Shown here: one piece after another, positions 5,812 through 63,477 of the stretch
Layout: each line of letters opens with the position of its first letter
Position numbering within the stretch: the stretch's first letter is position 1
Origin: Zhenpiania hominis
Lineage (GTDB): Bacteria > Bacillota > Clostridia > Peptostreptococcales > Anaerovoracaceae
Length of the DNA stretch: 64,000 nt
Direction of reading: 5' to 3'
NCBI RefSeq assembly: GCF_014333425.1
Contig: NZ_JACRYT010000011.1
Span: forward strand, 45,328-109,327
Made by a program: the position numbers and the translations under genes
The notes under the pieces: generated by a model
Told to the model about the DNA's origin: nothing
Seen by the model: the letters and a program-made list of their open reading frames with translations, nothing else
Database searches by the model: none

Positions 5812-6492
5812 TTATTTTATCATATTATCGATCTGTTTACACCGTCTTTTTTTGGAGTTGTCGATGTGGCGCTCCATGGCTTCCGCCCCCGCTTCCACGT
5901 CCTTTTCCGTAAAGGCTTTGAAGATCAGCCGGTGCTCTTCCAGAACTTCCGTCAGGTAATTGTTCGCGTAGATATCTTCTTCCGACCGGTATTTGAAATA
6001 GGTCTGATAAGAGGAAAGCAGCTGCCGCAGCATCCGGTTGTGGGATGCTTCATAGATGATCTGGTGAAATCCCGCGTTGATGGTGAGCATTTTGTCCACA
6101 TCATTGCGCAGCGTGTAAAATTCCATGAATTCAAAGGTTTCCTCCAGAGCGTCCATTTCGTCGTCCGTAATCCGTTCGATGGCCCATTTGACTGCCTGGA
6201 TCTCATAGATTTTGCGCAGCTGGAACATATCGACAAAGTCCTGTTGGGACAGGCCGATGACAAACGAGCCGCGGTTTAAGATATTTTCCACGAGCCCGTC
6301 CATTTCCAGCTGACGCAGAGCTTCCCGCACCGGAGTCCGGCTCACCTTGTATTCCTTGCAGATCGCCTGCTCCGTCAGCTTCTGACCGGGTTTCAATTTC
6401 CCGGTCAGAATGTCTTTCTGTAGCTGCGAAAAGAGACTGCTGGAGATGGGAGCGTTCCCTTTCGGTTCGTCCGAATGCTTATAAAGTACCAT
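5812..6492 (-). CDS. GntR family transcriptional regulator (FCD type)
   Basis: A 226-residue FadR/FCD-subfamily GntR regulator. The winged helix-turn-helix spans about 15-80 (KLTEQAICKEYKVSRTPVRE, then a GLVE..RGSFV wing). The all-helical FCD effector domain spans about 90-215, with candidate metal-ligand positions D/H typical of the family (H residues in GFHQII and EEHRLIF). It is the last gene of the aconitase operon, 12 bases after the isocitrate dehydrogenase stop, with AAAGGAG before its ATG. Its likely target is the operon's own promoter, where a TTGTATACAA palindrome overlaps the start region. The effector is unknown; citrate or a related tricarboxylate would be a natural guess. Confidence 0.9.
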   Translation of the reverse strand: MVLYKHSDEPKGNAPISSSLFSQLQKDILTGKLKPGQKLTEQAICKEYKVSRTPVREALRQLEMDGLVENILNRGSFVIGLSQQDFVDMFQLRKIYEIQAVKWAIERITDDEMDALEETFEFMEFYTLRNDVDKMLTINAGFHQIIYEASHNRMLRQLLSSYQTYFKYRSEEDIYANNYLTEVLEEHRLIFKAFTEKDVEAGAEAMERHIDNSKKRRCKQIDNMIK

Positions 6493-7645: not shown

Positions 7646-9565
7646 TTAACCTTTCATATAGTTGATTTTTCCGCCTTTTAAGATCAGCGCGATCTCCAGA
7701 TCCGAGAAGTTGGTGGCTGTCCGATAAGTTTTGCCGTTTGTTTCATTTTTGATTTCAATGACGCCGGATTTTACCTGCTCCTGAGCGTTTTCGATGACCA
7801 GCTTGTCTCCCAGTTTGAAGTCGTCGTAATCCGCAGGGTTTTCAAATACCAGAGGCATGATTCCGCTGTTGATCAGGTTGGATCTGTGGATTCTGGCAAA
7901 GGATTTGGCTACCACGAATTTTACGCCCAGATACAGCGGAGCCAAAGCGGCGTGTTCCCGGCTGGATCCCTGTCCATAGTTGTCGCCTCCAATGATGGCG
8001 CAGCTTCCCACTTCCTTGCATCTTCCGGCAAAGTCCTTGTCGATCTTTTCAAAACAGTAATTGGCAAGGTGCGGAATGTTGGAGCGGTAAGGCAGCAGTC
8101 TGGAGTCGGAGGGCATGATATCGTCGGTTGTAATGTTGTCTCCCGCGTGGAGAGTTACCGTGGCTTCCACTTTTTCCGGCAGAGCGGTGTTTCTCGGGAA
8201 CGGCTTGATGTTCGGTCCCATGGCTACCGGCGTGTTTTCCGTGTTGGTTCCTTCCGGATAAACGATGAAGTTATCGTTGAATTCAAAATCCGTGTCCGCG
8301 ATTTCAGGCAGCGGCTGTCCGGTTTTGCTTCCATCGGTCAGAACGCCGGTGATCGCGGAAATAGCGGCAGTTTCCGGGCTGACAAGGTAAACATCCGCGT
8401 CCAGGGTGCCGCTTCTTCCTTTGAAGTTCCGATTGAAGGTTCTCAGGGAAACCGCGCCGGATTTCGGGGACTGTCCCATGCCGATGCACGGACCGCAGGC
8501 GTTTTCGATGATTCTCGCGCCGGCAGCGATGATGTCCGCCAGCGCTCCGTTTTCCGCCATCTTGGTGAGGATTTTGCTGGAACCCGGAGAAATAACCAGG
8601 CTTACATCCGGATGCACTTTTTTCCCTTTGAGGATCGCGGCAACCTTCATCAGGTCGGTGTAGGAGGAGTTGGTGCAGCTTCCGATGGCCACCTGATCCA
8701 CCTTGATTTCGCCGATGTTGGCAACCGTATCTACATTGTCCGGGCTGTGGGGCTGCGCTGCCAGCGGCGTCAGCTTGTCCAGATCCACGATCAGCTCCTG
8801 GTCGTAAACCGCGTCCGGATCGGCTGCCAGGGGCGTGTAATCTTCTTCTCTGCCCTGGGATTTTAAGTAAGCCTTTGTGTTTTCATCACTTGGGAACACG
8901 GAAGTGGTCGCCCCCAGCTCCGCGCCCATGTTGGTGATGGTCGCCCGGTCGGTAACAGAAAGGGATTTTACGCCTTCGCCGGTGTATTCCACGATTTTGC
9001 CGACTCCGCCCTTTACGCTCAGCTGCTGTAGAACGTAGAGGATTACGTCCTTGGCGGAAGTCCACGGGTTTAATTTTCCTTTTAATTCTACCTTAATTAC
9101 TTTTGGAGCTACCAGGCTGTAGGTGCCTTTGGCCATGGCAACCGCCACGTCCAGTCCGCCCGCGCCGATGGCGATCATGCCCAGCCCGCCGCCGGTCGGA
9201 GTGTGGCTGTCAGAACCCAGCAGGGTTTTTCCCGGTTTTCCGTAGTTTTCCAGATGCAGCTGGTGGCAGATTCCGTTGCCCGGCTTGGAAAACAGTACGC
9301 CGTGTCTCTGAGCCACACTCTTGATGAAAGCATGGTCATCGGCGTTTTCAAATCCCGTCTGCAGGGTGTTGTGGTCGATGTAAGCGACGGAAAGTTCTGT
9401 CTGAACCTTGTCGATGTCCATGGCTTCCAGCTGCAGGTAAACCATCGTGCCGGTGGAATCCTGCGTCAGCGTCTGATCGATTTTAATCGTGATTTCCTCC
9501 CCCGGCGTCAGATTGCCCTCCACCAGGTGGTTTTCCAGAATCTTATATGCAAGTGTTTTTCCCAT
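7646..9565 (-). CDS. acnA: Aconitate hydratase
   Basis: A 639-residue aconitase interconverting citrate and isocitrate. The 4Fe-4S cysteines are visible: C297 in GSCTNSSY, and C357 and C360 in CGPCIGMG. DSHTPTGGGLGM and the C-terminal swivel-domain string GDNYGQGSSREHAALAP are also diagnostic. The start at 9565 is preferred over 9607 because AAGGAGGTCAA lies 7 bases before it. It is somewhat shorter than the 890-residue AcnA type and matches the compact aconitase found in many Clostridia. It leads an acn-icd-gntR operon that would supply 2-oxoglutarate for glutamate synthesis. No citrate synthase gene is present in the window. Confidence 0.93.
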   Translation of the reverse strand: MGKTLAYKILENHLVEGNLTPGEEITIKIDQTLTQDSTGTMVYLQLEAMDIDKVQTELSVAYIDHNTLQTGFENADDHAFIKSVAQRHGVLFSKPGNGICHQLHLENYGKPGKTLLGSDSHTPTGGGLGMIAIGAGGLDVAVAMAKGTYSLVAPKVIKVELKGKLNPWTSAKDVILYVLQQLSVKGGVGKIVEYTGEGVKSLSVTDRATITNMGAELGATTSVFPSDENTKAYLKSQGREEDYTPLAADPDAVYDQELIVDLDKLTPLAAQPHSPDNVDTVANIGEIKVDQVAIGSCTNSSYTDLMKVAAILKGKKVHPDVSLVISPGSSKILTKMAENGALADIIAAGARIIENACGPCIGMGQSPKSGAVSLRTFNRNFKGRSGTLDADVYLVSPETAAISAITGVLTDGSKTGQPLPEIADTDFEFNDNFIVYPEGTNTENTPVAMGPNIKPFPRNTALPEKVEATVTLHAGDNITTDDIMPSDSRLLPYRSNIPHLANYCFEKIDKDFAGRCKEVGSCAIIGGDNYGQGSSREHAALAPLYLGVKFVVAKSFARIHRSNLINSGIMPLVFENPADYDDFKLGDKLVIENAQEQVKSGVIEIKNETNGKTYRTATNFSDLEIALILKGGKINYMKG

Positions 9566-9635: not shown

Positions 9636-9743
9636 GGAGGTTTTTCCAGGAATCAGGCTGCCGACGGGCTGGGCCAATGGGAGGGGGAAGGAGGCTCTGG
9701 CGCGGCAGGATAGTCGGTTAGGATAGGACTGGACTGGCTCCGG

Positions 9744-9920
9744 CGCGAACCGCGAACATGGAAGTGCGAAACGGCAGCCAGTGGCGGGCTCCGCGAACAT
9801 TTGGGGGAGAAAGGGAAAAAAAGGCGGGACCCGCGAACATTTGAATTCGAAAGCACAAGTTGCTGCGGTCCCCGCGAACATTTGCAACAGGAAAAGCAGT
9901 TGTTCGCGTCTAGCGCGAAC
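9744..9920 (+). repeat. Phased CGCGAACATTTG repeat array, left of a nuclease-like gene
   Basis: CGCGAAC begins at 9744, 9751, 9792, 9832, 9873 and 9914. From 9751 on the intervals are 41, 40, 41 and 41 bases. The best conserved core is about 18 bases (GCGGGNCCCGCGAACATTTG-like), followed by about 20 poorly conserved bases with a recurring GAAA. An inverted copy TGTTCGCG at 9901 forms a hairpin with the copy at 9914. The repeat is shorter and less exact than a CRISPR repeat, and no cas genes are nearby. It occupies the gap between the 3' end of the nuclease-like gene and the acn promoter. Confidence 0.85.
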
Positions 9921-10032
9921 TTTTCCTTTAAATATCGGAAAATGGTGCGGCAAAAACAGATTTTACAGGGGATTAAAGCGGATTGAAGGGAGAATTTTCA
10001 AAGAATACGCAATAGAATTGATGTGCGGGAGG

Positions 10033-10106
10033 AAATGTTCGCGCAAGGGGTAAGGGGAAATTGGACTGGCGCAGTTGGGGGAGTACCCGGCGGGGAAATG
10101 TTCGCG
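10033..10106 (-). repeat. Two inverted copies of the CGCGAACATTT motif
   Basis: AAATGTTCGCG occurs at 10033-10043 and 10096-10106, the reverse complement of the motif in the array to the left. They lie just beyond the 3' end of the nuclease-like gene and have the same orientation as that gene. Confidence 0.8.
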
Positions 10107-10173
10107 CCGGGCGCGGGAGGGGGGGAAGCGGTAGCAGTTACGGCAGGCTTTCCGCCCCCCAGCTTTGTACGGT

Positions 10174-11001
10174 TTATTTAAAGTATGGCACAATATTCTT
10201 CTCAATCACCTGGTAAATGAAAACGCTGCTACAGTTACCCCGGCTGTCATCCTGGGTCAGAATCAGATTTTTCCCAATTAAAAAGTCGTGCTTCTGATAG
10301 GTGTGCAGTTTTCGCGCGTTGTGGGTGCAATAGGACAAATCGTTCAGCATGCCGAGATGTTCCCAGATGAGACGGCAGCCATCCGCCAGAGGAATGGTAA
10401 AATCCGGATAATAAAAAGAACCGTTTTCGTCCGGGTAGGGGAATTGCTCCTCATAATGAAAAGGAATCCCATAGCTGTACAGCGCGTTGGCGATAATCAC
10501 TTCGGATTTGGAGCGCACCAGAATACCTGCCAGCGTTTCATGGATATGTTTTTCCGGATCAAAAGGAGCTTTGTGGTAAAAGGCGGACTGGTGTCTGGCA
10601 ATTTGCTGCTTTTTTCTGAGAGCAAGCACATCTCCATATTTCTTCGGCAAAGAGGAAATGAGGGAATCGCAGTCCAGCGCTTGGTAAGTGTTGGCGGTCT
10701 TTTCCAGAATGGGGAGGTTGTGGCGGCAGATCTTTATCATTTCCTCCGCCAGCTTTTTCTCGGCAAGGGCGAGGAGCGTATCGGGATCCCGTTTCAAGTT
10801 GCGGCTGCAGTTGGACCATCCGCTGGGTGTTTTTTCTTTTACAATTTGATAGGGCGTTTGTGAATTGCTCCGCTCCCGGATGAAAAGCCGGCCTGGCGGC
10901 GCGGATGCCAGAACAGCGCGGCTTTCCTCGAGAAAAGTCCGCTGGTTTAACTGCTCAAGGGAAATCGCCTGCTGAAAAGAATCAAAATGTTTTTTGTCCA
11001 T
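10174..11001 (-). CDS. Uncharacterised protein with a PD-(D/E)XK nuclease-like C-terminal half
   Basis: A 275-residue protein that I cannot assign to a named family. The chosen start at 11001 has AAAGGAGG 5 bases upstream. Residues from about 150 on fit the PD-(D/E)XK fold: RSKSEVIIANALYSYGIPFH (helix with the conserved Glu), then beta strands with YPDFTI (Asp), then RLIWEHLGM (Glu, in place of the ExK motif), then a helix with K and Y residues. The N-terminal half is helical and basic. No helicase, methyltransferase or toxin partner is adjacent. The gene is flanked on both sides by CGCGAACA repeats. A DNA-end or nicking nuclease role is inference; the ExK motif being E-H-L leaves catalytic activity uncertain. 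Confidence 0.6.
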   Translation of the reverse strand: MDKKHFDSFQQAISLEQLNQRTFLEESRAVLASAPPGRLFIRERSNSQTPYQIVKEKTPSGWSNCSRNLKRDPDTLLALAEKKLAEEMIKICRHNLPILEKTANTYQALDCDSLISSLPKKYGDVLALRKKQQIARHQSAFYHKAPFDPEKHIHETLAGILVRSKSEVIIANALYSYGIPFHYEEQFPYPDENGSFYYPDFTIPLADGCRLIWEHLGMLNDLSYCTHNARKLHTYQKHDFLIGKNLILTQDDSRGNCSSVFIYQVIEKNIVPYFK

Positions 11002-11037
11002 AAAAACCTCCTTTGCAAATACCAAACATGCAAACAT

Positions 11038-11313
11038 AAGATGTTAGAGAGCATAAAAAGTGCGGATAAATTCAAATAAATGTAAAATAATATATATTTT
11101 ACCATAGAAATAGTCCGAAGCCCAGCTATAAAAGATGATTTTCATGAAAAAATCGAAAAAAACGCAATTTGTAAAGGGGTTCCCACGCTTTGTTCGCGGG
11201 CAGCGCAAATAGCAAATAAAATCCAGTGTTTTGTTCGCGCGTTGCCCAAAATTCCATTCCTGCCCGGAAGCGGCAAAAATAATGAAGTTTTTATGATAAT
11301 TTTTCGTATTTAT
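11038..11313. other. AT-rich intergenic region between divergent units
   Basis: No gene is seen. The region is AT-rich near 11050-11110 and carries the right-hand repeat pair at 11191 and 11232. TTTGCA and TGCAAA half-sites bracket the start of the nuclease-like gene (about 11012-11034). I could not find a convincing promoter for that gene. Confidence 0.5.
11191..11239 (-). repeat. Right-hand TGTTCGCG repeats with 41-base spacing
   Basis: TGTTCGCG occurs at 11191-11198 and 11232-11239, exactly 41 bases apart, each preceded by T-runs (CTTTG, TTTTG). This is the same period as in the left array but inverted with respect to it. The nuclease-like gene therefore lies between convergently oriented arrays. 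Confidence 0.8.
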
Positions 11314-11362: not shown

Positions 11363-12226
11363 ATGAGCATGTTGGGATATGTAACAGCAGATAAACCGGA
11401 GCTGAAAATGCGGGAATTTGAAGTCTACAGCGGATATTACTGCGGCGTGTGCAAATCCATTGCCAGGCGCTATGGGCAGATCCCGAGAATAGTTCTGAGT
11501 TATGACGCTGCTTTTCTGGCACTGCTTCTTGGAGGGCTTTCCGGGGAGGCTGACGAGCCGACGAGAGAACACTGTATCGCCCACCCCGCGAAAAAAAAGA
11601 CGATTGTAAGCAACAACGCAATTGATTATGCGGCGGATGTGATGTTGATTCTTGCTTGGTATAAACTGATGGACGACGCCCATGATGAGGGACGCCTGCG
11701 CGCGAAGGCAGCCCTAAAGGCATTCAGGAGAGTTTTTCGCAAACTGCAGCGCGCGAGACCGGAGCTTTGTGAAAAGGTAGATGAAAATTTAAAAGCATTG
11801 AGACGTCTGGAGGAACAAAAATGTGACAGTCTGGATGAGACGGCGGAGGCTTTCGCGAAAATTATGGAAGCGATTTTTGAAGAGGGGCCTTTGCCCGAAG
11901 GATTTAAAGAACAGCAGGTGCTGCGCCGAATCGGATATCATCTGGGAAAGTGGATTTATCTGATCGACGCGATTGATGATATTGATGAAAATATAGAGAG
12001 CGGCGCATATAATCCGTTGCTCTTCCGGTTCCATTATGAGGCGGAAGAAGAGGGATTTAAGTCCAGAATTATGAAAACTTGCAGGTTCAATCTGTTTCAC
12101 TATCTGGGAGAGATAGGAAAGGCGGTGGATCTGCTCGCGATTAAAAAAAACAGAGGTATAATTGAAAACGTGGTGTACAAGGGGTTATTAAGAAAAACAG
12201 AGTATATAACCCAGAAGGAGGAATAA
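11363..12226 (+). CDS. DUF5685 family protein
   Basis: A 287-residue protein with the family's characteristic start, [30 protein letters not shown]: a short strand, then CGVC in the position where these proteins carry a Cys pair. The rest is mainly helical. It contains a D-rich helix DDAHDEGR near 103-110 and [11 protein letters not shown] near 200, reminiscent of a metal- or polar-lined helical bundle such as terpenoid-synthase-like folds; that comparison is only visual. The start may be 11363 or the second ATG at 11369, with AAAGGGG before both. Its stop overlaps the ATG of the J-domain gene (TAATG), so the two are translationally coupled. Function is unknown. Confidence 0.7.
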
Positions 12227-50070: not shown

Positions 50071-50882
50071 AACTGATAGCTTTGGATTTGGATGGGACTA
50101 CCTTAAATGACGATCGGGTAATCAGCCGCGCGAACAGGGAAGCTTTGGAAGCCGCGATAGAAAAGGGCGTCAATGTAGTAATTGCCACAGGAAGGGCATA
50201 CTCAGCCCTGCCGGAGGATGTTTTTGAGATAAAGGGAATCCAGTATGTCCTGACTTCCAATGGCGCGGTGATTACAGATCTGCGGACGAAGGAGGTTATT
50301 TACGAAAACTGCATCGCTCCTTCAGCAGTGGAGAAGGCAGTGGAACTGTTGAAGCAGTATCCCTTTATGGTAGAAGCTTTCACGGGCGGCGGCGCGTATA
50401 TTGAAAAAGCCGAGTACGATCATATTCGGGAAACAAGGCTCAGCTTTCGCCATGTGGATTATGTGCTGACGACCCGCCAGCCGGTAGACGGGCTGTACGA
50501 TTTCATTCTTGACCATAAAGAGCATATTGAAAATATCAACGTGAACTTTGAAAATCAGAAAGATCGGTCTATGATGCGGGAGATTCTCAGCGGCCTTGCC
50601 GATACAACCCTGACGACCTCATTTGATCACAATCTGGAAATTGGCGGCGCTACAACCAGCAAAGCCGAGGCGCTGCGGGAGTTGGAACATATTCTGAATG
50701 TAAAGTCGGAAGAAATGATGGCAGTGGGAGACAGCCCCAATGACATGGCGATGATGCGTCTCGCGGGCCTTCCGGTAGCGGTGGAAAACGCGAAAGAGGA
50801 AGTTAAGGCGATTGCCAGATATGTGACTGCTACCAACCATAAGGACGGAGTTGCGCAGGCGGTGCGTAAATTTGTGCTGTAA
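50061..50882 (+). CDS. Cof-type HAD phosphatase
   Basis: A 273-residue haloacid dehalogenase superfamily hydrolase of the Cof/YidA group. HAD motif I is ALDLDGTTLND, motif II is VIATGRAY, motif III has the Lys in TTSKAEALRELEHIL, and motif IV is VGDSPNDMAMMRLAG. A C2B cap lies between motifs II and III. Such enzymes dephosphorylate sugar phosphates, flavin or pyridoxal phosphates, often with broad range. It is translated in overlap with the upstream hydrolase. Confidence 0.92.
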   Translation: MAIKLIALDLDGTTLNDDRVISRANREALEAAIEKGVNVVIATGRAYSALPEDVFEIKGIQYVLTSNGAVITDLRTKEVIYENCIAPSAVEKAVELLKQYPFMVEAFTGGGAYIEKAEYDHIRETRLSFRHVDYVLTTRQPVDGLYDFILDHKEHIENINVNFENQKDRSMMREILSGLADTTLTTSFDHNLEIGGATTSKAEALRELEHILNVKSEEMMAVGDSPNDMAMMRLAGLPVAVENAKEEVKAIARYVTATNHKDGVAQAVRKFVL

Positions 50883-61764: not shown

Positions 61765-61839
61765 TCCAAGGTAGCTCAATGGTGGAGCAACCGGCTGTTA
61801 ACCGGTAGGCTGTGGGTTCGAGCCCCACCCTTGGAGCCA
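61765..61839 (+). tRNA. tRNA-Asn (GTT)
   Basis: Acceptor TCCAAGG/CCTTGGA, anticodon GTT at 61797-61799, T loop TTCGAGC, encoded CCA. First gene of the array, with its own promoter. Confidence 0.97.
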
Positions 61840-61943
61840 ATTAAAAAGATAGGAGGAGTACGCGGCAAAGTTCTGTGTTGCGGGGTCTGCGAATTCGCAC
61901 AGGTGGCATTGAGCAGACAAAAAAATAAAAAATAAAAAAATGC
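61840..61943 (+). other. Spacer with palindrome between first and second tRNA
   Basis: No gene. A 12-bp perfect palindrome TGCGAATTCGCA lies at 61888-61899, within GTCTGC/GCAGAC arms (61885-61890 and 61914-61919), followed by an A-rich tract. Its function is unknown. Confidence 0.5.
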
Positions 61944-61972
61944 TTGACAATCGAATGAAAATGCTGTATAGT
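61944..61972 (+). promoter_or_regulatory. Main tRNA array promoter
   Basis: TTGACA (61944-61949), 17 bases, TATAGT (61967-61972), 37 bases before tRNA-Val. It probably drives the remaining fifteen tRNA genes. Confidence 0.88.
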
Positions 61973-62009
61973 TAATAAATGTGTCGAGTAGATAAGAACA
62001 CTTGAATGT

Positions 62010-62085
62010 GGGCGTTTAGCTCAGCTGGGAGAGCATCTGCCTTACAAGCAGAGGGTCATAGGTTCGAGCCCTATAACGCCCACCA
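62010..62085 (+). tRNA. tRNA-Val (TAC)
   Basis: Acceptor GGGCGTT/AACGCCC, anticodon TAC at 62043-62045, encoded CCA. Confidence 0.97.
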
Positions 62086-62134
62086 TAATCGGTTTGACGT
62101 TTGGCTGAAAAAGCGGACGTGTTATCAAGGATGC

Positions 62135-62211
62135 GGTCCGGTAGTTCAGTTGGTTAGAATGCCAGCCTGTCACGCTGGAGGTCGACGGTTCGAGCCCGTT
62201 CCGGATCGCCA
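62135..62211 (+). tRNA. tRNA-Asp (GTC)
   Basis: Acceptor GGTCCGG/CCGGATC with one G-U pair, discriminator G, anticodon GTC at 62169-62171, encoded CCA. Confidence 0.97.
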
Positions 62212-62242
62212 ATTTTATCAGAACCGACGACGAATTTAGTTT

Positions 62243-62317
62243 GCTGGCGTGGCTCAACGGTAGAGCAGCTGATTTGTAATCAGCAGGTTGGGGGTTCGAT
62301 TCCCTCCGCCAGCTCCA
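62243..62317 (+). tRNA. tRNA-Thr (TGT)
   Basis: Acceptor GCTGGCG/CGCCAGC, anticodon TGT at 62275-62277, encoded CCA. Confidence 0.97.
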
Positions 62318-62323
62318 TATTAT

Positions 62324-62408
62324 CGAGGGTTTCCCGAGTGGCCAAAGGGGGCGGACTGTAAATCCGTTAGCTGAGCTTTCGGTGGTTCGAATCCACCACC
62401 CTCGACCA
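62324..62408 (+). tRNA. tRNA-Tyr (GTA) with C1:G72 acceptor pair
   Basis: A class II tRNA of 85 bases with long variable arm, anticodon GTA at 62358-62360, encoded CCA. The acceptor is CGAGGGT/ACCCTCG with discriminator A, so the first pair is C1:G72. Bacterial tRNA-Tyr usually has G1:C72, while C1:G72 is the archaeal and eukaryotic identity pair. Confidence 0.95.
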
Positions 62409-62426
62409 ATTAATTTCATTATGTGT

Positions 62427-62501
62427 GCGGAAGTGGCTCAGGGGTAGAGCATCGCCTTGCCAAGGCGAGGGTCGCGAGTTCGAATCTCGTCTTCCGCTCC
62501 A
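62427..62501 (+). tRNA. tRNA-Gly (GCC)
   Basis: Acceptor GCGGAAG/CTTCCGC, anticodon GCC at 62459-62461, discriminator T, encoded CCA. Confidence 0.97.
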
Positions 62502-62506
62502 TTTAT

Positions 62507-62580
<74 letters not shown>

Positions 62581-62585
62581 TTTTT

Positions 62586-62662
62586 GGGCTCATAGCTCAG
62601 TTGGATAGAGCAACGGCCTTCTAAGCCGTGTGTCCGGGGTTCGAATCCCTGTGGGCTCGCCA
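62586..62662 (+). tRNA. tRNA-Arg (TCT)
   Basis: Acceptor GGGCTCA/TGGGCTC with two G-U pairs, discriminator G, anticodon TCT at 62620-62622, encoded CCA. Confidence 0.95.
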
Positions 62663-62673
62663 TTTTTCGAGAT

Positions 62674-62750
62674 TGGGGTATAGCCAAGCCGGTTAAGGCA
62701 ACGGACTTTGACTCCGTCATTCGTAGGTTCGAGTCCTGCTACCCCAGCCA
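62674..62750 (+). tRNA. tRNA-Gln (TTG)
   Basis: Acceptor TGGGGTA/TACCCCA, with the U1:A72 pair usual for tRNA-Gln, anticodon TTG at 62708-62710, encoded CCA. Confidence 0.97.
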
Positions 62751-62753
62751 TAC

Positions 62754-62829
62754 GACCCATTAGCTCAGTCGGCAGAGCACTTGACTTTTAATCAAGGTGT
62801 CCGGAGTTCGAATCTCCGATGGGTCACCA
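62754..62829 (+). tRNA. tRNA-Lys (TTT)
   Basis: Acceptor GACCCAT/ATGGGTC, anticodon TTT at 62787-62789, encoded CCA. Confidence 0.97.
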
Positions 62830-62871
62830 ATTTTTTTAGGTATGGTGTAGCAGAACAAAAACTTACAATAC

Positions 62872-62960
62872 GGAGAGGTGTCCGAGTGGTTTAAGGAGCT
62901 GGTCTTGAAAACCAGTGACTCCGAAAGGGGCCGTGGGTTCGAATCCCACCCTCTCCGCCA
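62872..62960 (+). tRNA. tRNA-Ser (TGA)
   Basis: Class II tRNA of 89 bases, acceptor GGAGAGG/CCTCTCC, anticodon TGA at 62906-62908, discriminator G, encoded CCA. Confidence 0.97.
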
Positions 62961-63010
62961 TAAGGAACTGAGAATCCCGCAGTGAACTATGTCGGAATTT
63001 TATTTAGCCT

Positions 63011-63105
<95 letters not shown>

Positions 63106-63106
63106 T

Positions 63107-63182
63107 AGGGGTATAGCTCAGTTGGTAGAGCAGTGGTCTCCAAAACCACGTGCCGTGGGTTCAAATCCTACTGCCCCTGCCA
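63107..63182 (+). tRNA. tRNA-Trp (CCA)
   Basis: Acceptor AGGGGTA/TGCCCCT with one G-U pair, anticodon CCA at 63140-63142, discriminator G, encoded CCA end. Confidence 0.97.
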
Positions 63183-63204
63183 TTTTTCGAACGCAGCCTG
63201 TTTT

Positions 63205-63281
63205 CGGGGTGTAGCGCAGCTTGGTAGCGCAACTGGTTTGGGACCAGTGGGCCGCGGGTTCAAATCCTGCCACCCCGACCA
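63205..63281 (+). tRNA. tRNA-Pro (TGG)
   Basis: Acceptor CGGGGTG/CACCCCG, with the C1:G72 pair normal for tRNA-Pro, anticodon TGG at 63239-63241, encoded CCA. Confidence 0.97.
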
Positions 63282-63302
63282 CTTTTAAGGAAGTGTTTCA
63301 TT

Positions 63303-63379
63303 GGGCCATTAGCTCAGTTGGTCAGAGCATCCGGCTCATAACCGGCAGGTCCGGGGTTCAAGTCCCTGATGGCCCACCA
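63303..63379 (+). tRNA. tRNA-Met (CAT), probably elongator
   Basis: Acceptor GGGCCAT/ATGGCCC, anticodon CAT at 63337-63339, encoded CCA. A paired first base argues against initiator tRNA. An Ile tRNA with lysidine-modified CAT cannot be fully excluded. Confidence 0.9.
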
Positions 63380-63401
63380 TAAGAATTAAATTTTACTTTA
63401 T

Positions 63402-63477
<76 letters not shown>

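Follow-up and report, generated by a model that had tools for sequence, protein, structure and literature searches.

A 64,000-nucleotide stretch of the Zhenpiania hominis genome (assembly GCF_014333425.1, contig NZ_JACRYT010000011.1, positions 45,328 to 109,327 of the forward strand), hereafter the window, carries a stand-alone gene for a PD-(D/E)XK nuclease-like protein that lies among copies of a short repeated word, CGCGAACA. The features of this locus are as follows (window positions; lengths in base pairs, bp, or amino acids, aa).

7646..9565, minus strand: aconitate hydratase gene (acn), flanking gene and syntenic anchor
9637..11274, no strand: likely extent of the module (gene plus arrays), 1,638 bp, standing where the relative L094 has 65 bp
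9744..9921, plus strand: left array of CGCGAAC(A/T) at 9744, 9751, 9792, 9832, 9873 and 9914, main spacing 40-41 bp
9873..9908, no strand: inverted pair CGCGAACA-N20-TGTTCGCG (copies at 9873 on the plus and 9901 on the minus strand), start-to-start distance 28; geometry seen again in other family members
10036..10106, minus strand: two inverted copies (10036-10043 and 10099-10106), 63 bp apart, with GGAAATGTTCGCGC common to both
10174..11001, minus strand: stand-alone PD-(D/E)XK nuclease-like gene, 275 aa
11191..11239, minus strand: pair of copies upstream of the nuclease gene (11191-11198 and 11232-11239), 41 bp apart
11363..12226, plus strand: gene of the DUF5685 family, flanking gene and syntenic anchor

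The Repeats and the Nuclease Gene

Nine copies of the eight-letter word CGCGAACA lie between 9751 and 11239, where about 0.05 would be expected in 1,489 bp (Poisson probability 5e-18). They start at 9751, 9792, 9832 and 9873 on the plus strand and at 9901, 10036, 10099, 11191 and 11232 on the minus strand, and they are accompanied by CGCGAACT at 9914 and an extra CGCGAAC at 9744. The whole 64-kilobase (kb) window holds 11 exact matches against 2.1 expected, a number that none of 100 shuffles reached; the remaining two are at 5961, within a gntR-like gene, and at 50129. The cluster (seven copies in 1.2 kb) is also the top of the window in a sliding scan for repeated 8-mers, with GATTCGAA, present in six copies in a tRNA cluster, as the runner-up. 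Sixteen tRNA genes are clustered on the plus strand at 61765-63474.

The original prediction, made from the letters of the window, had described CGCGAAC copies in both orientations, at intervals of 41, 40, 41 and 41 bp from 9751 onward and 41 bp from 11191 to 11232, and each copy, orientation and interval was recovered at its position; the inverted pair formed by the copies at 9873 and 9901 was not among its remarks. Its assignment of the protein to the PD-(D/E)XK nucleases was borne out by a confident model of that domain, for which the nearest folds are I-Bth0305I and TnsA. The modelled protein thus appears to belong to the PD-(D/E)XK / EDxHD fold with its conserved acidic residues, while no Pfam or NCBIfam entry matches it at the cut-off. 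Residues S164, K165, S166, E167, D200, E214 and H215 are invariant in all 38 aligned rows.

Words of Their Own in the Flanks of Related Genes

Loci of the family were collected in three sets: 80 kept of 330 relatives, from genome contigs; 17 of 30 loci from the 349 genomes of the family of genome G001 (190 of which had a match at 1e-30), the others duplicating the first set; and 31 of 40 further regions, nine being repeats of earlier loci. At each locus the commonest 8-mer on both strands, within 600 bp on each side of the open reading frame (ORF), was compared with 200 first-order Markov shuffles. A significant word was found at 43 of 101 stand-alone loci at p ≤ 0.01 and at 52 at p ≤ 0.05, with one locus, negative both times, counted twice among the 101 (L034 and L177). 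At the stricter level these were 11 of 27 close homologues, 17 of 45 wider homologues of the same family and 15 of 29 other stand-alone loci, a group that includes many Lachnospiraceae and a Treponema bin (L041) that reaches only p 0.025. Upstream flanks taken alone were significant at p ≤ 0.01 in 21 of 90 stand-alone loci. Windows placed 1.5-2.1 kb away gave 1 of 24, 4 of 28 and 0 of 23 by group at p ≤ 0.05, the wider group having no distal sequence.

Where the nuclease domain lies within a larger ORF (>380 aa), none of 27 tested loci (28 listed) was significant, although 24 of the 28 could be tested downstream only, since most of these ORFs exceed 1,100 aa and reach back to where the fetched sequence begins. 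A like-for-like comparison of downstream flanks gives 21 of 96 stand-alone loci against 0 of 27 (Fisher 0.007), or 20 of 90 against 0 of 27 (Fisher 0.0065) when duplicates are dropped and coding-type repeats are scored as negative. Within its limits, this control links the repeats to genes that stand alone and not to the presence of the nuclease domain as such. The larger ORFs, found among loci L024-L080, end in the same nuclease domain and are likely of the type of PADLOC candidate PDC-S68.

The words differ among loci: TGCGACCA at L001, GACAGCAA at L003, CATGGCGC at L018, TAGGATAA at L065, GTGGCATA at L057, TTACCTAA at L056 and GTGACTAA at both L028 and L050, with others besides, and some family arrays are amplified in tandem up to 16-17 copies. 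Over 36 loci (L030 and L037 included, L133 and L136 left out), protein and word similarity show a weak but above-chance correlation (Mantel r 0.18, 3 of 5000). Two genes on one contig, L012 and L014, are 45% identical and have different words (ATGGTGCA and TACGGTCA), and L028 and L050, at 39% protein identity, have the same one. The spacers of the GTGACTAA pairs are nevertheless N19-20 in the genome G030 and N17, once N16, in G360; the protein may thus set the geometry of the pair, as is suggested by a shared word with differing spacers.

Spacing of the Sites

For spacing, 36 loci were used, which are the 43 significant ones minus L031, L032, L182 and L133-L136, dropped as near-duplicates, for multiple-of-three spacings that hint at coding repeats, or, in one case, as a possibly coding cluster. 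The smallest same-strand spacing of at least 18 bp at each locus falls near 21, 32, 41, 52, 62, 73, 84 or 104 bp. These 36 values are phased near 10.5 bp with R 0.70, and all 75 collapsed same-strand distances with R 0.54; in neither case was any of 3000 random sets as strong. When a locus rich in 3-bp-multiple spacings is included, R is 0.33 over 121 distances. The helical phasing proposed from the window alone thus extends across the family for same-strand spacings, and it indicates that double-stranded DNA is bound on one face. Inverted pairs follow a rule of their own: 13 of the 29 loci with any inverted pair within 130 bp have one at 27-29, a number reached in none of 5000 random sets, and the commonest distance is 28 (nine loci).

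Dispersal within Genomes

Dispersal was probed in seven relatives' genomes (G001, G030, G350, G351, G352, G353 and G360), each with the word of its own gene; the counts are of exact pairs, including those beside the gene, with diverged copies falling outside them. Pairs of TGCGACCA number nine in G001 and none in six other genomes, and pairs of TATGCCMC number 14 in G351, 11 in G352, one in G353 and none in three others. For TAGGATAA there are 21 pairs in G350 and none in 11 others; for GTGACTAA, seven in G030, 10 in G360, one in G353 and none in 12 others; and for TTACCTAA, 10 in G353 and none in 14 others. Backward-pattern controls of these pair searches gave zero, except for one G350 site, found in both directions in the TTACCTAA search. 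The direct-repeat form of the G001 word has 11 matches, with one for the backward control.

Copies of the word also lie at places without the gene. In G351, arrays are found on five contigs and the gene on one, and, as far as the fetched flanks extend, gene-less array places occur in the other six genomes as well. The dispersed arrays of G351 have no mutual similarity by blastn at E ≤ 1e-6. Spacer identity in G350, where L065 and L249 are one locus and were counted once, is 0.68 within a place, 0.41 between places and 0.37 for random letters, and the G351 values are 0.60, 0.41 and 0.31, so that identity between places is slightly above random. Array places lie outside ORFs of at least 150 aa in 23 of 24 rows, or 20 of 21 distinct places.

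The original prediction had proposed a linked module of a gene and its recognition sites, and this is upheld in that family members tend to have a word of their own, dispersed in the same genome where this was probed. It had also named two signs that would speak against linkage, homologues lacking the repeats and repeats lying apart from the gene. Both were seen, since close homologues of the window gene lack CGCGAACA arrays and arrays occur without a gene, but as tests of linkage they mislead, because the word varies between members and the copies scattered in a genome correspond to the word of a gene present there.

The Genomic Slot

Five neighbours of the nuclease gene were scanned: the aconitase, a GntR-type regulator, the DUF5685 protein, a DnaJ-domain protein and a membrane protein with a weak DUF2232 match. 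None of the five is a Cas protein, transposase, AAA+ protein, TnsB, TnsC, methyltransferase or known defence gene. The window aconitase is 96.5% identical over 401 residues to that of L094 (Anaerovorax odorimutans SL.3.17), where acn and DUF5685 are 292 bp apart and the slot is without the gene, with no repeat found. Judged by the likeness of such neighbouring genes, the organism of the window is probably close to Anaerovorax. At L002 the gene occupies the acn/DUF5685 slot with in-frame stops and an altered SKSE context, and its best repeated word is not significant, as 87 of 100 shuffles were equally strong. At L003 the homologue adjoins DUF5685 and is flanked by the word GACAGCAA at 52-bp spacing, a layout that we read as the same as that of the window. 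Beside the GACAGCAA sites, the flank of this homologue also holds a second repeat, GGCAGTAAAAT, at 2431-2567 of L003 and with a period of 41.

Comparison with Known Systems

The closest parallel is the REPIN-RAYT system, in which a REPIN consists of two inverted repetitive extragenic palindromic (REP) sequences with a short, highly diverse spacer between them and is duplicated by a REP-associated tyrosine transposase (RAYT) (PMC8049555). In both systems a single enzyme gene goes with short inverted repeats that have a short diverse spacer and are dispersed and locally amplified, here in relatives' genomes. The enzymes differ, as a RAYT is an HUH/Y1 transposase and the protein here is a predicted PD-(D/E)XK nuclease; no Y1 transposase family appears in the Pfam listing for 38 members, a listing that covers the members themselves and not RAYTs elsewhere in their genomes. 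One end of a REP sequence is described as marked by the tetranucleotide GTAG or CGTC (PMC3733652), whereas the arms here are 8-9 bp without such a general tag: among the significant words GTAG occurs only at L130 (GGTAGACC) and CGTC in the longer word of L013 (CGTCTGAAA). The same-strand sites here are also helically phased over arrays, and the seven probed genomes have 7-21 exact pairs, compared with about 100 or more in E. coli. In layout the module matches REPIN-RAYT, but in enzyme and tag it does not, and the number of copies counted here is lower; it would function in a similar way without belonging to that system.

I-Bth0305I, an EDxHD homing endonuclease, is a phage-type homing enzyme for which the available text describes no private repeat arrays, and which, as reported there, forms a dimer on a target nearly 60 bp long (PMC3943268). 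Homing endonucleases cut the allele that lacks their gene, into which the gene is then copied; an empty slot is known here from L094. PADLOC candidates PDC-S68 and PDC-S69 have the C-terminal nuclease domain in common with the window protein; the end of PDC-S68 matches it at E 1.9e-31, and PDC-S69 matches at E 3.8e-8 over model positions 164-260 of 289 only, which is not full-length and sets membership of PDC-S69 aside. The larger ORFs with this domain differ in lacking significant flank repeats in tests made mostly downstream. Three further assignments were not supported by the five scanned neighbours: a Tn7-like transposon, with no TnsB, TnsC or other partner for a TnsA-like protein among them and with no shared ends or duplication seen; a restriction-modification system, with no adjacent methyltransferase; and a CRISPR (clustered regularly interspaced short palindromic repeats) array, already discounted in the original prediction, as the core is 8-9 bp in both orientations and none of the five is a Cas protein. 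In the open-licence literature, which our search covered, no report of a nuclease-linked private repeat family was found. The gene among its evenly spaced words, together with the different words beside many of its relatives, points to an undescribed kind of enzyme-plus-repeat system.

Interpretation

The reading that we favour, at about an even chance of being right, is that these are one-gene modules in which a dimeric stand-alone PD-(D/E)XK nuclease is joined to private repeats of its cognate half-site, resembling REPIN-RAYT with an unrelated enzyme. Words of 8-9 bp would be private to the enzyme, around its gene and at other, mostly intergenic, places in the genomes checked. The protein would bind as a dimer: in each protomer the N-terminal half would recognise one arm of an inverted pair, and the two catalytic domains would be placed over the spacer, commonly 17-21 bp. 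Adjacent dimers would be aligned on one face of the DNA, since the distances between same-strand sites are whole numbers of helical turns. Kept arms and spacing with drifting spacers indicate protein-bound half-sites, and, given the longer target of I-Bth0305I, it is plausible that a pair of 36 bp holds a dimer. Occasional cleavage and repair may expand, homogenise and spread the arrays, which would leave words and spacing to persist while spacers drift. Binding, dimerisation, cleavage and spreading are thus inferred, and what was observed is the association, the specificity of word to genome, the spacing rules and the dispersal.

Several observations weigh against this reading. The strict test fails at 58 of 101 stand-alone loci, so that either some members lack the link or a large share of the arrays has decayed; the larger-ORF control is mostly confined to downstream flanks, with moderate like-for-like significance, and distal windows reach p ≤ 0.01 in 0, 2 (of 28) and 0 cases by group. 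Dispersal is known from the relatives, CGCGAACA itself having been examined within the window, and separate places may be fewer than contigs because some arrays stop at contig ends. Five dispersed copies in G001 (L214, L215, L218, L219 and L220) are part of a longer repeated element, which aligns over 134 to 382 bp with an identity of 72-83% and has a fixed core of three TGCGACCA sites that can face either way with respect to the remainder. The comparison with L094 reveals neither defined module ends nor a target-site duplication, the N-terminal part of the window protein has no confident fold match, and spacers within pairs did not clearly vary more than linkers did, with a mixed result in which 6 of 9 comparisons went that way, so that no clear trace of cutting is seen there.

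An alternative possibility, which we regard as real though not probable, is that the protein is a nuclease-derived DNA-binding regulator or nucleoid organiser with little cleavage, and that the arrays are operator or architectural sites selected for the benefit of the host. Helical phasing, the position of nearly all places outside ORFs, and the keeping of arms and spacings where the remaining sequence is unrelated are all as expected of selected binding sites, but the catalytic residues are invariant, the slot is empty in L094, some arrays are amplified in tandem, and words change quickly between homologues, which would be unusual with many fixed targets. It is unlikely that the gene forms a transposable element by itself, with a TnsA-like nuclease, the arrays as its ends and the dispersed arrays as gene-less relics resembling miniature inverted-repeat transposable elements: neither a transposase nor an AAA+ partner is among the scanned neighbours, shared ends or a duplication were not seen, and the G351 arrays have no blastn-detectable common sequence.

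A single-gene anti-phage defence nuclease, marked or titrated on the host chromosome by the arrays, would agree with the PADLOC matches; these are confined to the catalytic part, candidate status there is no tested function, and the scanned neighbours are metabolic, regulatory or of unknown function, which makes this explanation improbable. That the arrays are ordinary intergenic low-complexity or chance repeat clusters unlinked to the gene is hardly credible: some homologues do lack repeats, but the larger-ORF (downstream) and distal controls are low, the sites are phased, and dispersal is word-specific with nearly empty reversed-pattern controls.

A bolder form of the favoured module reading, which we put forward tentatively, is that this is a second, independently evolved bacterial intragenomic sequence population, in which a restriction-fold dimer would read paired 8-bp arms, cut between them and spread its own arrays through the genome as the breaks are repaired; enzyme and word would co-evolve at such a rate that two paralogues of one cell (L012 and L014) own different words. 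The family itself offers a second case of an enzyme with a private repeat population, built on an enzyme of unrelated type and found in Anaerovorax/Emergencia-type and Lachnospiraceae genomes. The survey alone gives some 36 natural enzyme-word pairs. If the protein does read its word, the family would supply a ready-made collection of evolving DNA specificities, each coupled to a nuclease and with a spacer geometry that varies by member, and how bacterial repeat populations arise and are maintained could be tested directly.

Other Repeats Encountered

Two genomes, G029 and G111 (loci L102 and L254-L257), carry other dispersed palindromes of the form GTTGGCGA-N21-22-TCGCCAAC, which occur in pairs 132-135 bp apart. 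The two palindromes of a pair are little alike, and their word is absent from all three nuclease genes fetched from these genomes; one pair lies in the acn/DUF5685 slot. In genome G108 (contig C55, 28810-28897), a 20-bp tandem repeat, CGCGAACACCTCTGTCATTG, has a layout unlike that of the nuclease-linked arrays.
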